From Candidatus Ornithospirochaeta stercoripullorum (GTDB taxonomy: Bacteria; Spirochaetota; Spirochaetia; Sphaerochaetales; Sphaerochaetaceae): a DNA stretch of 41,618 nt. Position numbers and translations under genes: made by a program. The stretch covers positions 1 through 41,618 of the forward strand of contig JADIMT010000055.1 in the NCBI GenBank assembly GCA_017694595.1. The letters run 5' to 3'. The notes below the pieces were generated by a model. That model was given only the letters and a program-made list of their open reading frames with translations, had not been told where the DNA came from and made no database searches. Each line of letters starts with the position of its first letter. The stretch's first letter is position 1. Below are positions 28,473 through 32,477 of the stretch, in pieces.

Positions 28473-30204
28473 TTACTCTACATCCTGTAGAGCTGCATAG
28501 TCCTCTTCACCGGTTCTCACTTTGACAACCTTGGTGACATTGTAGACGAAGATCTTTCCATCTCCGATATGTCCTGTATATAGTGCTTTCTTCGCCGCTT
28601 CTATCACTGAATCCACAGGTATCTTGCTGACAACGACTTCTACCTTTACTTTTGGAATCAGGTTGACATCAAGTTCAGCTCCACGGTATCGCTCTCCAGC
28701 GCCTTTCTGTATGCAGCATTCCATCACCTGAGTCATTGTGATTCCTGTGACTCCGAGGCGGTTGAGCGCGGTCTTCAGAGCGTCAAAGCGCGAAAGACGG
28801 CAGATGATGGAAACCTTGTGCATCCCTGTATCATAAACACCATCGACGATAGTCTTTTTGTTAACGACTTTTATCGCAGCATCCGTCTCCGCTTTTGAAG
28901 CCTTGTCATAGTCCTCTTCACCAAGATCCGTGTTTTCATTGATTTCCATATCAAGGGCTGAGACATCGCTGATTGCGAATCCAGAGTATGCAGAAGCAAG
29001 TCCATGCTCATGCATATCAAGGCCATCAATCTCTACTTCCTTGGAAACTCTGAGACCGACAGCTTTATCAATCAGTTTGAAGACTATGAACATTACTATC
29101 AATACATAAGCTGCAACTGATACAATTCCAAGAAGCTGTATGCCCAGCTGACCAAAGCCACCACCGTAGAATAGGCCAGGCGCAACACCATTGCCGCCAT
29201 CGCTGAAAAGTCCTACAGCTATAGTTCCCCATATGCCATTTACCATGTGTACGGAAATCGCACCTACTGGATCATCAATCTTCACGACTTTATCAAAGAA
29301 TTCAACGAAAAGAACAACGAGAACTCCCGCTACAAAACCAATGAAGAATGCACCTACCGGAGTTACGCAGTCACATGGCGCTGTGATAGCCACAAGGCCT
29401 GCAAGTGCTGCGTTGAATGTCATTGATACATCAGGTTTGCCATAACGAATCCATGTGAAAACCATTGCAATGACAGTCGCAATTGCAGCTGCGAGATTTG
29501 TATTGAACATGACAAGAGAACCGAGAATCATGTCCTCATCCGTAGACATTGCGACGGTCGAACCACCATTGAATCCAAACCAGCAGAACCAGAGGATGAA
29601 AACACCCAAAGCCATAGCTGTCATATTATGTCCCGGAATAGCCCGTGGCTTGCCGTTTTTGTCATACTTTCCGATGCGAGGTCCAAGAAGCGCGGCACCA
29701 AGACATGCTGTGAGTCCTCCGACCATATGAACGCATGTAGAACCTGCAAAATCATGGAAATTCAGAGATGAAAGCCATCCACCTCCCCAAATCCAATGGC
29801 CTGAGATAGAGTAGATAACCAAACTGATTGCAGCGCTGTAGAGGCAATAAGCCTTGAAATTCGTGCGTTCCGCCATTGAGCCGGAGACAATTGTTGCCGC
29901 TGTGGCACAGAATACTGTCTGGAAGATTGCATAGCACCAGATTGGAAGCGTGCCGAAATCATAGTTTCCTCTGATAAGAGGATCAAAACCACCTATTAGC
30001 GGCCCAGAGCCTGCAAACATGATTCCGAACCCGATAAGCCAGAAGCATGGAGCACCGATACAGAAATCCATCATGTTCTTCATGAGTATGTTTCCTGTAT
30101 TCTTTGCACGTGTAAGTTCAGCTTCGCAAAGCGCGAATCCAGCTTGCATGAAAAAGACAAGAATTGCTGCAACAAGAGTCCATTACATCCGTCGCTGAAT
30201 ACAT
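28473..30204 (-). CDS. amt: Ammonium transporter fused to a C-terminal PII domain, frameshifted near the start
   Basis: The continuous frame covers 28473-30149 (558 codons, from MQAGFALCE), but this begins inside the first membrane segment. Upstream in the same frame come codons for WTLVAAILVFF, then TAA. A good start (ATG 30204, strong GGGGAGG ribosome site) reads MYSATDV and joins WTLVAAILVFF only if one extra base near 30183 is skipped (or two missing bases restored). The frame-corrected protein has about 576 residues. The Amt body has GHWIWGGGWLS and ends near residue 400 after a linker; the last 115 residues are a full PII domain with the T-loop ERYRGAE (modifiable Tyr) and B-loop TGHIGDGKIFV. 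A true mutation, sequencing error or recoding cannot be told apart here. Confidence 0.87.
30180..30186 (-). other. Frameshift position in amt
   Basis: From ATG 30204 seven codons (to 30184) are in a frame one base off from the rest of the gene, which resumes with TGG at 30182. The single base at 30183 is the simplest insertion. There is no homopolymer at the site. Confidence 0.75.
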
Positions 30205-30233
30205 TCCCACTCCTCCCCATATCATCCCAGAAT

Positions 30234-30270
30234 AAAAAAGGTGCACGACAGGACAGTCCTATGTGCACCT
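30234..30270 (-). terminator. Leader terminator 2 upstream of amt
   Basis: On the minus strand a perfect 8-bp stem (30263-30270 with 30239-30246), with an inner AGGAC/GTCCT pairing in its loop, is followed by six T (30234-30239). It ends about 30 bases before the amt start codon, leaving no room for a promoter after it. Confidence 0.75.
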
Positions 30271-30299
30271 CTTTGTACCGGGAATAAGCTTTGAAAAAG

Positions 30300-30326
30300 A
30301 AAAAACGCCTTGGTATCCCAAAGCGT
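30300..30326 (-). terminator. Leader terminator 1 upstream of amt
   Basis: On the minus strand a 9-bp stem (30318-30326 with 30305-30313, one G-U) with a 4-base loop, followed by six T, one C and five T. It lies about 10 bases after the predicted start of a promoter at 30343-30371. Confidence 0.8.
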
Positions 30327-30342
30327 CTTTGCTTATATTCTC

Positions 30343-30371
30343 ATTAACCCTTTTTGTGCGCTCTTTGTCAA
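30343..30371 (-). promoter_or_regulatory. Promoter upstream of the amt leader
   Basis: On the minus strand TTGACA (30366-30371), 17 bases, GTTAAT (30343-30348). Transcription would begin near 30336 and run through both leader terminators before reaching amt. Confidence 0.6.
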
Positions 30372-30453
30372 TAGAAAAGACAGCGAATTTTAAATTTTAC
30401 CCGTAACTCTTTGCAATGAAAACATATCAATTACAAAAAACAGGACAGCATGT

Positions 30454-31038
30454 TCAGTGACTTAGATTCATGAAGCTTTTGACAGGAATGCTGAAAAGGA
30501 TGCCCATGCCACGCTTTTTTAGTATATCCATGCTGTTGATGGCGTTTATGATAGGCTGAGCCTTCTCACTGGGAACAACTATCATTAGTATTTCTTTTTC
30601 AGGAACCAGCGGGGAACCGAAGAACTTCACATCATCTTCAGTGCTTGTGCCATGTGCGTTTATGACAGTGCCTCCGCCAGCACCTGCTTTTCTAGCAGTT
30701 GCCATAATCTCTTCGCTGTATCCATCTTCAGTGATGACTTCTATAAGTGTCCAGCCTGAATCCATTGTTTCAACCTCCGTGTCGATAATCATGGCAATGC
30801 CCTTTGCCTGTACAACTTTTATGCTTTTGAGGACATCATCTACAATTGTGTTATCCATCACGCTGACCAGTACTTCTTGCTTTGTATCTCCCAATCCCAA
30901 AGCTGCAAGGATGGTTCGTGTTGCTGTGCCACGTGCATTGCATACTGTACCTCCTGGTGCACCTGCCTTTCTGGCTGCTGCCATTATATGTTTCGCTTCG
31001 CCTCTCTGTACTACAGAGATCAACGTGCTTCTGTTCAT
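30454..31038 (-). CDS. Tandem PII-family protein linked to DUF1538
   Basis: A 194-residue soluble protein made of two PII-like halves. Each contains the repeated motif: HIMAAARKAGAPGGTVCNARG (about residue 17-37) and EIMATARKAGAGGGTVINAHG (about 109-129), each followed by a strand pattern like LVSVMD or LMIVVP. Classical PII proteins are single-domain trimers that bind ATP/ADP and 2-oxoglutarate and regulate partners through the T-loop; here the Tyr-containing T-loop motif is absent. It overlaps the upstream DUF1538 gene by ATGA and has a GGGGG-type ribosome site, so it is probably the dedicated regulator of that membrane protein. Confidence 0.85.
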   Translation of the reverse strand: MNRSTLISVVQRGEAKHIMAAARKAGAPGGTVCNARGTATRTILAALGLGDTKQEVLVSVMDNTIVDDVLKSIKVVQAKGIAMIIDTEVETMDSGWTLIEVITEDGYSEEIMATARKAGAGGGTVINAHGTSTEDDVKFFGSPLVPEKEILMIVVPSEKAQPIINAINSMDILKKRGMGILFSIPVKSFMNLSH

Positions 31039-32477
31039 AAGTTCCCCCTTTGAGTTGTCTTGATTCTGTAGATTATGCCGAGAATCTCGATGAGAAGAAT
31101 TGGCATCATAGCTATCATGGCTATCATTCCGAATGACGAAGAGAGCGTCGCTCCATCTGTCCCGGAAGCGGCTCCAATGGCAATCGGCAAGAGGAATGCT
31201 GAGCTCATAGGACCAGTTGCAACTCCTCCTGAGTCAAATGCGATGGCCGAGAACAATCCCGGAGTCCAGATCATAAGGATGATTATAAGCGCATAGCCTG
31301 GGAGAAGAAACATCCAGATAGGAAGATTGTAGACAGTGCGGATTAGAGAAAGCACTACTGCTAAAGCAACTCCAAGCGCTAGTGTTGCCAGCATTACTTT
31401 CCGGCTTATTCTACCACTGCTCACTTCTTCGACTTGTTCTGTAAGGACAATGACAGCCGGTTCTGCAAGCACAACTGAAAGGCCGAATAGGAAAGCAGCG
31501 CCATAGAGCAGGAATTGGTTTATGCTTATCAAAGCTTCTCCGAGATTCCTGGCAACTGATGAGAAAGAGTAGTCAACTCCTGTGAAGAAGAGCACTATCC
31601 CGAGATATGCATAAACTACACCGATTGCTTCCCTGATAGCCTCTGTCTTTGGTGTCTTCAGAACAAAAAACTGCATTAGGAGGCATACAACGACAAGAGG
31701 TAGAAGCGAGAAACCTGTCTCCTTTAACTTTATTAGAAGCAGGTTGATAAACGGAATGACATCTGTCTCAGCTGCCATTTCCTGGGCAGTTGCGTTTCCG
31801 CCTGTGACAAGGCCGAAGATGAGCACGAAGAGCACAGGCCCGACGGATGAGATAGCGACATAGCCGAAGTCTGCTTCGCTGTTGTGCTTCCGCATCGATG
31901 CGACACCCATGCCGAGTGCCATGATGAAGGGAACGGAAAGCGGTCCTGTGGTCGCCCCTCCTGAATCGAAGCCAATGGAGATGAAGAAATCATCAGAGAA
32001 GATAGAGAGTGCAAATAGCAACGCATAGCAGATGAACATCACTGTTTTCATGGACCATGAAAGCACTGTACGAGATAGCGATATAGCGAAGAAAAGGCCC
32101 ACGCCCAGTGCTATTGCTAGCACTAATGGTGTTGTAGGTGTTCCTGGACTGGCTGCATGTACCTCTGATGCCAGTACTTGCACATCTGGTTCAGGTAGGG
32201 TGATGATGACACCTAGTACGAAAGCTGCTATGAGCATCGTGATAAGCGATCTGCTCTTTGTCAGTGCAGAACCTATCCTCCCTCCGATTGGAGTGATTCC
32301 GATTTCTACACCTGTGAGAAAGATTGTAAGACCAATTATAACTAGGAAGCATGAAAGAAGAAATCGTAAGACTCCATGGCCATCCATGACTCCTGTTATG
32401 AGGGAGAGCACAAGTGTTAAAGCACCAATGGGCAGTACTGACAATGATGTCTCTTTAAGCTGTCTTACTATATTCAT
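31035..32477 (-). CDS. DUF1538 domain membrane protein, probable transporter
   Basis: A 480-residue membrane protein with two homologous DUF1538 halves. Matching motifs recur: TGVEIGITPIGGRIG versus TGVDYSFSSVARNLG, and GFDSGGATTGPLSVPF versus AFDSGGVATGPMSSAF. The conserved Asp and Gly-rich FDSGG motifs in both halves suggest an inverted or parallel two-fold transporter with an ion or substrate site; the substrate is unknown. It is the first gene of a two-gene unit with the tandem-PII protein, which implies nitrogen- or energy-linked regulation of transport. No Shine-Dalgarno precedes ATG 32477; TATAAG lies 15 bases upstream. Confidence 0.85.
   Translation of the reverse strand: MNIVRQLKETSLSVLPIGALTLVLSLITGVMDGHGVLRFLLSCFLVIIGLTIFLTGVEIGITPIGGRIGSALTKSRSLITMLIAAFVLGVIITLPEPDVQVLASEVHAASPGTPTTPLVLAIALGVGLFFAISLSRTVLSWSMKTVMFICYALLFALSIFSDDFFISIGFDSGGATTGPLSVPFIMALGMGVASMRKHNSEADFGYVAISSVGPVLFVLIFGLVTGGNATAQEMAAETDVIPFINLLLIKLKETGFSLLPLVVVCLLMQFFVLKTPKTEAIREAIGVVYAYLGIVLFFTGVDYSFSSVARNLGEALISINQFLLYGAAFLFGLSVVLAEPAVIVLTEQVEEVSSGRISRKVMLATLALGVALAVVLSLIRTVYNLPIWMFLLPGYALIIILMIWTPGLFSAIAFDSGGVATGPMSSAFLLPIAIGAASGTDGATLSSSFGMIAMIAMMPILLIEILGIIYRIKTTQRGNL

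Follow-up and report, generated by a model that had tools for sequence, protein, structure and literature searches.

NitR of Clostridium saccharobutylicum is an ANTAR antiterminator of GS/GOGAT genes (Stutz et al. 2007, via PMC6316151) and acts under nitrogen limitation (PMC6316151). The loop of an ANTAR target hairpin follows a simple rule, its first base being A and its fourth G (PMC3369931, PMC8934654), and published target searches demand two such hexaloops (PMC3369931, PMC8164766). The linker that follows the upstream hexaloop (P1) measures 5–12 nt in eut of Enterococcus faecalis (PMC3369931) and 2–25 nt in an actinobacterial survey (PMC8164766). For EutV of E. faecalis, deletion of P1 or a changed linker strongly cuts induction (PMC3369931), and extension of the linker in a EutV target by 20 nt abolished antitermination in vitro (PMC8934654). 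Walshe et al. describe the single hexaloop as the minimal binding motif, expect single sites where polymerase timing is irrelevant and, in this 2022 structure paper, urged a search for such cases (PMC8934654). In the available text of the open-access literature, a single-hexaloop antiterminator is found only there, as a possibility, and the main text of PMC3369931 does not mention spirochaetes.

Here we describe the leader of an ammonium transporter gene (amt) of Candidatus Ornithospirochaeta stercoripullorum. The analysed window comprises 41,618 nucleotides (contig JADIMT010000055.1, assembly GCA_017694595.1). Judged from sequence, the amt leader is very likely a two-step antitermination switch worked by a NitR-like ANTAR protein encoded behind glnA, and amt is probably transcribed only when a nitrogen regulator stops the terminator hairpins from forming.

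Layout of the amt leader

The leader is read from the minus strand. Its promoter (30343–30371) consists of TTGACA (30371–30366), a 17-nt spacer and GTTAAT (30348–30343), a weak −10 element, at the very position given by the initial annotation. Promoters are consensus calls, and the start site near 30336 is a predicted one. The consensus scan itself skipped the leader promoter because its rule demands A at position 2 of the −10 element. A TTGAC-like −35 element is conserved among relatives and lies 40–48 nt 5′ of the hexaloop in most of them.

Terminator 1 (30299–30332, minus strand) reads GACGCTTTGG-GATA-CCAAGGCGTTTTTT; a hairpin annotated earlier at 30300–30326 is its core. Its helix covaries in relatives, with 98% of positions paired. 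Terminator 2 (30235–30274, minus strand; AGGTGCAC-16 nt-GTGCACCTTTTTT) corresponds to the second hairpin and T tract previously placed at 30234–30270. Folding energies of the cores are −14.7 kcal/mol for terminator 1 and −19.5 kcal/mol for terminator 2. Only terminator 1 is reported by the consensus scan, because the loop of terminator 2 exceeds the limit of 8 in that scan. The ribosome site and presumed start of amt (30202–30218, minus strand) feature a Shine-Dalgarno-like GGGGAGGAG at 30218–30210 and ATG 30204, about 30 nt past the last T run; the same start is found in relatives. On the minus strand, the consensus scan lists no promoter between terminator 2 and ATG 30204, in line with the earlier view that there is no room for a further one.

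The regulated gene encodes a fusion of an Amt ammonium transporter (PF00909) and a P-II domain (PF00543), the in-frame part of which spans 28473–30149 on the minus strand. The Amt body is read in the frame of ATG 30149, whereas ATG 30204 lies in another frame, since 2 nt that seven relatives possess are deleted near 30182: at 30180–30204 (minus strand) the relatives read GATGTNAT[CT]TGG, and the window reads GATGTAATGG with 2 nt missing. This deletion may be an assembly error or a real lesion. The Amt body of 558 aa is otherwise intact despite the frameshift at the start.

The 5′ arm of each terminator, together with the bases just before it, can form an alternative 4-bp hairpin with a six-base loop. 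Hexaloop hairpin 1, the predicted ANTAR antiterminator 1 (30321–30334, minus strand; AAGC[AAAGAC]GCTT), is located at about +2 of the predicted transcript, with 13 nt from the −10 element to loop A1. Hexaloop hairpin 2, the predicted ANTAR antiterminator 2 (30265–30278, minus strand; GTAC[AAAGAG]GTGC), lies about 56 nt away from the first. Both loops have A1 and G4 behind a C-G closing pair, and all 20 of 20 independent genus matches follow the same A1/G4 rule. The stems, at 4 bp, exceed the 3 bp taken as the minimum for a stem supported by covariation. At both elements the hexaloop overlaps the 5′ arm of the intrinsic terminator; terminator 1 excludes hexaloop hairpin 1, and terminator 2 excludes hexaloop hairpin 2. 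Alone, the hexaloop hairpins reach −2.0 (hairpin 1) and −1.7 kcal/mol (hairpin 2), compared to −14.7 and −19.5 kcal/mol for the terminators, which therefore win unaided. The initial annotation had seen no ANTAR target of the paired-hexaloop type in this leader. That form, with adjacent hexaloops, is indeed absent, but single hexaloops of ANTAR type are present, one of which overlaps each terminator; moreover, an ANTAR protein is encoded beside glnA in the same genome.

Short, conserved and followed by nitrogen genes, the leader might also be a protein-free riboswitch or attenuator responding to glutamine or ammonium. A search of the whole window against Rfam at the gathering score yielded tRNA only, and a relaxed search of 30180–30480 gave only matches far below gathering; no Rfam family fits the leader, and the earlier conclusion that it contains no glutamine riboswitch holds. 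The transcript preceding terminator 1 is about 45 nt long with one 4-bp hairpin, to our knowledge too small for any known aptamer. We regard a riboswitch as extremely improbable.

The genes located 5′ of the amt leader (30454–32477) encode a DUF1538 protein and a further protein whose match to P-II covers the second half only, and they share an operon. The DUF1538 protein has UmpA-like and UmpB-like halves (NCBIfam matches under the cut-off). The leader could be a plain double terminator, in which terminator 1 ends the DUF1538-PII transcript, amt lives on readthrough and the A..G loop merely reflects pairing with the U run. The PII gene, which stops 83 nt short of the promoter, does lack an obvious terminator, and loop bases A1-A2 and G4-C6 pair with the U run and the GCC of the terminator. 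Yet none of 11 further amt loci has PII/DUF1538 genes upstream as the window does, and the leader element persists in 10 of them. In addition, the stem bases that precede the loop pair and covary with the terminator arm, a feature that a plain terminator would not require. Overlap of hexaloop and terminator is also concentrated at amt: among strong terminators in L045–L124, those in the 500 nt ahead of amt share bases with a hexaloop stem (3 bp or longer) in 55 of 71 cases, compared to 44 of 146 elsewhere, and most of these 44 have an AANGGC-like loop and are probably other regulon leaders. A plain double terminator is thus considered very improbable. Termination of the tandem-PII transcript, which the initial annotation gave as an alternative for the first hairpin, is discarded as the principal role of hairpin 1, because the PII operon is upstream in the window only; terminator 1 may additionally stop that transcript here.

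Conservation and covariation of the hexaloop elements

Of 36 searched genomes from the genus of the window (G000–G035), 12 yielded Amt, including a C-terminal piece in G002 and a copy lacking the N-terminus in G026. The latter copy (L008, G026:C59) is devoid of the first ~76 residues and of a leader, and is located behind unrelated genes. Element 1 is present in all ten complete genus upstream regions and in L056, whose genome has model matches identical to those of G070 from the same genus. Element 2 is present in 9 of 11 genus amt leaders, being missing in L009 and L010, and its hexaloop stem in L004 is just 2 bp long. The stems across the genus leaders are AAGC/GCTT, AGGC/GCTT, GTAC/GTGC, ACAC/GTGT, TGCGC/GTGCA and TACGC/GCGTG, the last four of which are the element 2 stems of relatives. 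The comparison with other amt leaders that had been proposed as a check thus yielded conserved hairpins with compensating stem changes in relatives.

Among the amt genes closest to that of the window, mostly from Clostridia, about two thirds have a related element in front of them. A script for hexaloop plus terminator accepted 51 of 80 leaders (500 nt; L045–L124), and L045, L071, L073, L074, L085 and L088 among the 29 misses carry the element on inspection. L104, from the culturable Anaerocolumna sedimenticola, is another carrier. Counted over 90 amt leaders of 400 nt, from which L008 was left out because it has neither amt N-terminus nor leader, the combination occurred in 59, compared to 0.1 on average when the 90 were shuffled 10 times. 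It was absent (0 of 15) from the amt leaders of ANTAR-free distant spirochaete genomes. Three leaders from ANTAR-positive genomes (L076, L082 and L086) have the same architecture with G at loop position 1 (GAAGAC, GAAGGC); A1 of the loop may hence be replaceable. The closest named Amt-PII fusions (L045–L124, GTDB genomes) belong mostly to Lachnospiraceae and other Clostridia, which suggests joint transfer, amt having moved between lineages together with its leader type.

In 135 nonredundant elements, for which loop A1, loop G4 and the C-G closing pair were selection criteria, position 2 of the loop is A in 130 and position 5 is G in 116. Alignment A2 holds 55 of 77 candidates; the weak rows L038:1456 and L098:3008 and 20 others were omitted, and second elements of spirochaetes were excluded with the exception of that of L011. 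Its stem is 88.7% paired (69.3% when shuffled) and its covariation value is 0.702, compared to 0.284 for shuffled alignments and at most 0.186 for register slides. These statistics lean towards structure because rows were picked partly on the stem rule. Three less biased tests agree with them. The fourth stem pair, which was not selected for, is paired in 81% of rows versus 45% in shuffled ones, with each of the six standard pair types represented. When loop and terminator alone were used for selection (243 windows, many of them in wrong registers), pairs 1–4 reached 62–65% versus 39–45%, and one-step register slides were near chance with the exception of one pair. Finally, among 20 matches outside A2 of R1, a covariance model built on the terminator fold, 19 have a stem of at least 3 bp, compared to 10.7 when shuffled.

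A promoter scoring at least 8 of 12 precedes 96 of 133 elements, and in 72 of these 96 loop A1 is located 11–17 nt past the −10 element, which means that the stem begins within a few bases of the expected +1 and that scant space is left for an upstream P1. The canonical dual hexaloop was sought in three ways and rejected as a candidate, P1 being found at chance level only. With a linker of 0–25 nt, P1 was found for 12 of 133 elements versus 12.6 after shuffling, by a rule uncalibrated on a proven dual leader, and for 3 of 32 in the genus set. With a linker of 0–16 nt, there were 6 of 135, all of them lacking the C-G closing pair, and 13 in a control window. Clostridial eutP-type loci (PF10662), intended as positive control for P1, showed no convincing ANTAR elements at all. 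A second hexaloop a short linker upstream, the hallmark of the dual-hexaloop family, was not found above chance; the element is therefore not classed in that family as defined, but as a variant.

The two hexaloops of the amt leader might still be the P1 and P2 of one split target with a terminator in between. Two A1/G4 hexaloops do occur in 9 of 11 genus amt leaders (one with a 2-bp second stem) and in several amt leaders of Clostridia. On the other hand, glnA and gltB of the same genome and amt of L009 and L010 have a single hexaloop, and terminator 1 has already been passed before hexaloop 2 exists. In addition, a linker of 14 nt or one longer by 20 nt blocks antitermination by EutV (PMC3369931, PMC8934654). 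We consider a split target unlikely.

ANTAR protein, proposed regulon and proposed switch

The genome of the window encodes an ANTAR protein of 183 aa (PF03861; G000:C41:3542–3700). Its gene is located between the genes for glutamine synthetases of type I and type III, directly behind glnA, and a GATase_2 (gltB-type) gene is divergent from glnA. PF03861 was detected in 42 of 48 genomes of the genus, the window's own included, and in 45 of 50 and 27 of 30 genomes behind L045–L124. Among genomes of the same class outside the genus, it was found in 0 of 16 distant spirochaetes and in 1 of 8 others, and control genomes gave 0 of 14. In nearly all of 14 clostridial loci a GS-like gene, called by a simple motif tag and not by a family search, is located directly 5′ of the ANTAR gene.

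No receiver domain was found by Pfam in the ANTAR protein of the window's genome. The region of the phospho-aspartate motif reads IVVSPLPAG, with valine at the expected Asp, and ANTAR proteins of relatives have D or N at this position. As there is neither a Pfam receiver nor the phospho-Asp, ordinary receiver phosphorylation is unlikely as the signal in this species. The degenerate receiver half suggests control by a partner protein or ligand and not by a kinase; we infer contact with GS or PII as the signal to the ANTAR protein.

In the genome of the window, R1 at E ≤ 0.5 finds exactly three elements, namely at glnA, the gltB-type gene and amt (element 1). The same three are among 36 matches of a promoter-plus-loop pattern, a number otherwise close to the 23 of the reversed-pattern control. 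In sister species, elements lie 5′ of glnN, asnB, pyrG, the gltB-type gene and amt; other targets there are ABC binding proteins, a sodium:solute symporter, an M20 hydrolase and a GntR regulator. Downstream genes were read for 20 further genus model matches, at sites other than the known glnA, gltB and amt loci. The targets are mainly nitrogen and glutamine genes. Elements at L230, L231, L235, L237, L240 and L241 precede ABC solute-binding proteins and a sodium:solute symporter, for which a nitrogen link is not obvious.

Elements track ANTAR genes across genomes. With R1 at E ≤ 0.01, elements were found in 72 of 76 ANTAR-positive and 8 of 36 ANTAR-negative genomes, a distribution that also speaks against the protein-free riboswitch. 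For this comparison R1 was run on 41 of the 80 genomes behind L045–L124, all ANTAR-negative ones included, and G083 was counted once with G070 because of identical match coordinates, apparently from the same assembly. The ANTAR-positive genomes with an element comprise 40 of 42 from the genus, 1 of 1 from the same class and 31 of 33 from Clostridia and others; the corresponding ANTAR-negative values are 2 of 6, 2 of 23 and 4 of 7. Two ANTAR-positive genomes tallied as misses deserve mention. G060 has, on inspection, a hexaloop-terminator element divergent from a gltB-like gene, and G031 has the same core bases in the same region and failed the script rule. Among the ANTAR-negative genomes, G042, G059 and G104 have weak matches, and five drafts have clear elements (G005 and G070, which are 76–78% complete, G125, G126 and G149).

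These five drafts would fit a reading in which the hexaloop is bound by an RNA-binding protein other than the glnA-linked ANTAR protein. Against it, the loop rule is the published ANTAR rule and the ANTAR gene adjoins target genes. Furthermore, G045, the sole ANTAR-positive member of 24 same-class genomes outside the genus, holds the best R1 match of that class: the element is located directly behind the ANTAR gene and before pyrG, 45 nt after TTGACA (the ANTAR search of G045 was made after its model match). The probability of another binder is therefore regarded as slim.

For the antitermination switch worked by the ANTAR protein, we propose the following course. Transcription would start near 30336, and the first RNA to emerge could fold as hexaloop hairpin 1. 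If active ANTAR protein is absent, the far more stable terminator 1 should form and transcription stop; polymerases passing terminator 1 would encounter this choice again at element 2. Under nitrogen shortage, each hexaloop would be bound and held closed by active ANTAR dimers, neither terminator would form and amt would be read. Each terminator would thus be served by one hexaloop with no adjacent partner, single sites would take part in antitermination itself, and the same predicted element would control glnA and the gltB-type gene of this genome. The initial annotation had proposed readthrough or antitermination for amt and a possible nitrogen-sensing leader; dependence on antitermination and nitrogen sensing are both supported by conservation, by covariation and by the regulon.

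Several observations count against the switch. The promoter spacing is so tight that the protein has little time to bind, and the EutV-type single-hexaloop form fails in E. faecalis (PMC3369931, PMC8934654). The R1 matches in 8 of 36 ANTAR-negative genomes, the 2-bp stem of element 2 in L004, the lack of element 2 in L009 and L010 and the G1 loop of three clostridial leaders also count against it, and transporter binding-protein and symporter targets are a poor fit to nitrogen control.

Beyond this locus, we lean towards a class of ANTAR regulons in the genus and many gut Clostridia, in which a single-hexaloop antiterminator would be the first structure of the transcript, with the terminator complete by about +45. 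An ANTAR protein with degenerate receiver would catch the emerging loop without P1 in response to a nitrogen signal other than phosphorylation, and amt would have two such gates in series. If true, the regulon comprises ammonium uptake, both glutamine synthetases, glutamate synthase and the glutamine users asnB and pyrG. Such a class would escape the published two-hexaloop searches. The locus would be a compact natural test object (about 45 nt of RNA) for an ANTAR protein that beats terminator folding without a loading site, and would yield a concrete nitrogen-control model for uncultured bacteria of gut and rumen.

Comparison with known ANTAR systems

AmiR (PDB 1qo0) is likewise an ANTAR protein with a pseudo-receiver, and similarity in coiled coil and ANTAR domain is detectable for the sister-species protein of L039, which weakly resembles Rv1626 and AmiR. 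AmiR differs in its control by AmiC and in its targets, which are amidase genes.

With EutV and the eut leaders of E. faecalis, the amt leader shares the A1/G4 hexaloop, a stem that overlaps the terminator and mutually exclusive folds (PMC3369931, PMC8934654). EutV targets need two hexaloops joined by a short linker; each terminator here has a single one, predicted to lie at the 5′ end of the transcript. Another difference is that EutV is a phosphorylated receiver protein, and the receiver half of the ANTAR protein described here is degenerate.

The nitrogen regulons predicted by Ramesh et al. (2012), for example in Desulfotomaculum acetoxidans, likewise include ammonium transporters, P-II and glutamate and glutamine synthases, under dual hexaloops (PMC3369931). 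Single-hexaloop elements could not be found in that study, because its search demanded two hairpins (PMC3369931).

Taken together, the closest biology to the amt leader appears to be that of NitR, and the leader would work like the targets of ANTAR antiterminators. In both cases an ANTAR protein is tied to glutamine synthetase and antitermination concerns nitrogen-assimilation genes (PMC6316151), and in the window's genome the ANTAR gene is linked to glutamine synthetase with GS/GOGAT genes as targets. At the level of the protein and its target genes, which this comparison covers, the differences to NitR are the spirochaete host and the presence among the targets of an Amt-PII gene preceded by two elements in tandem.
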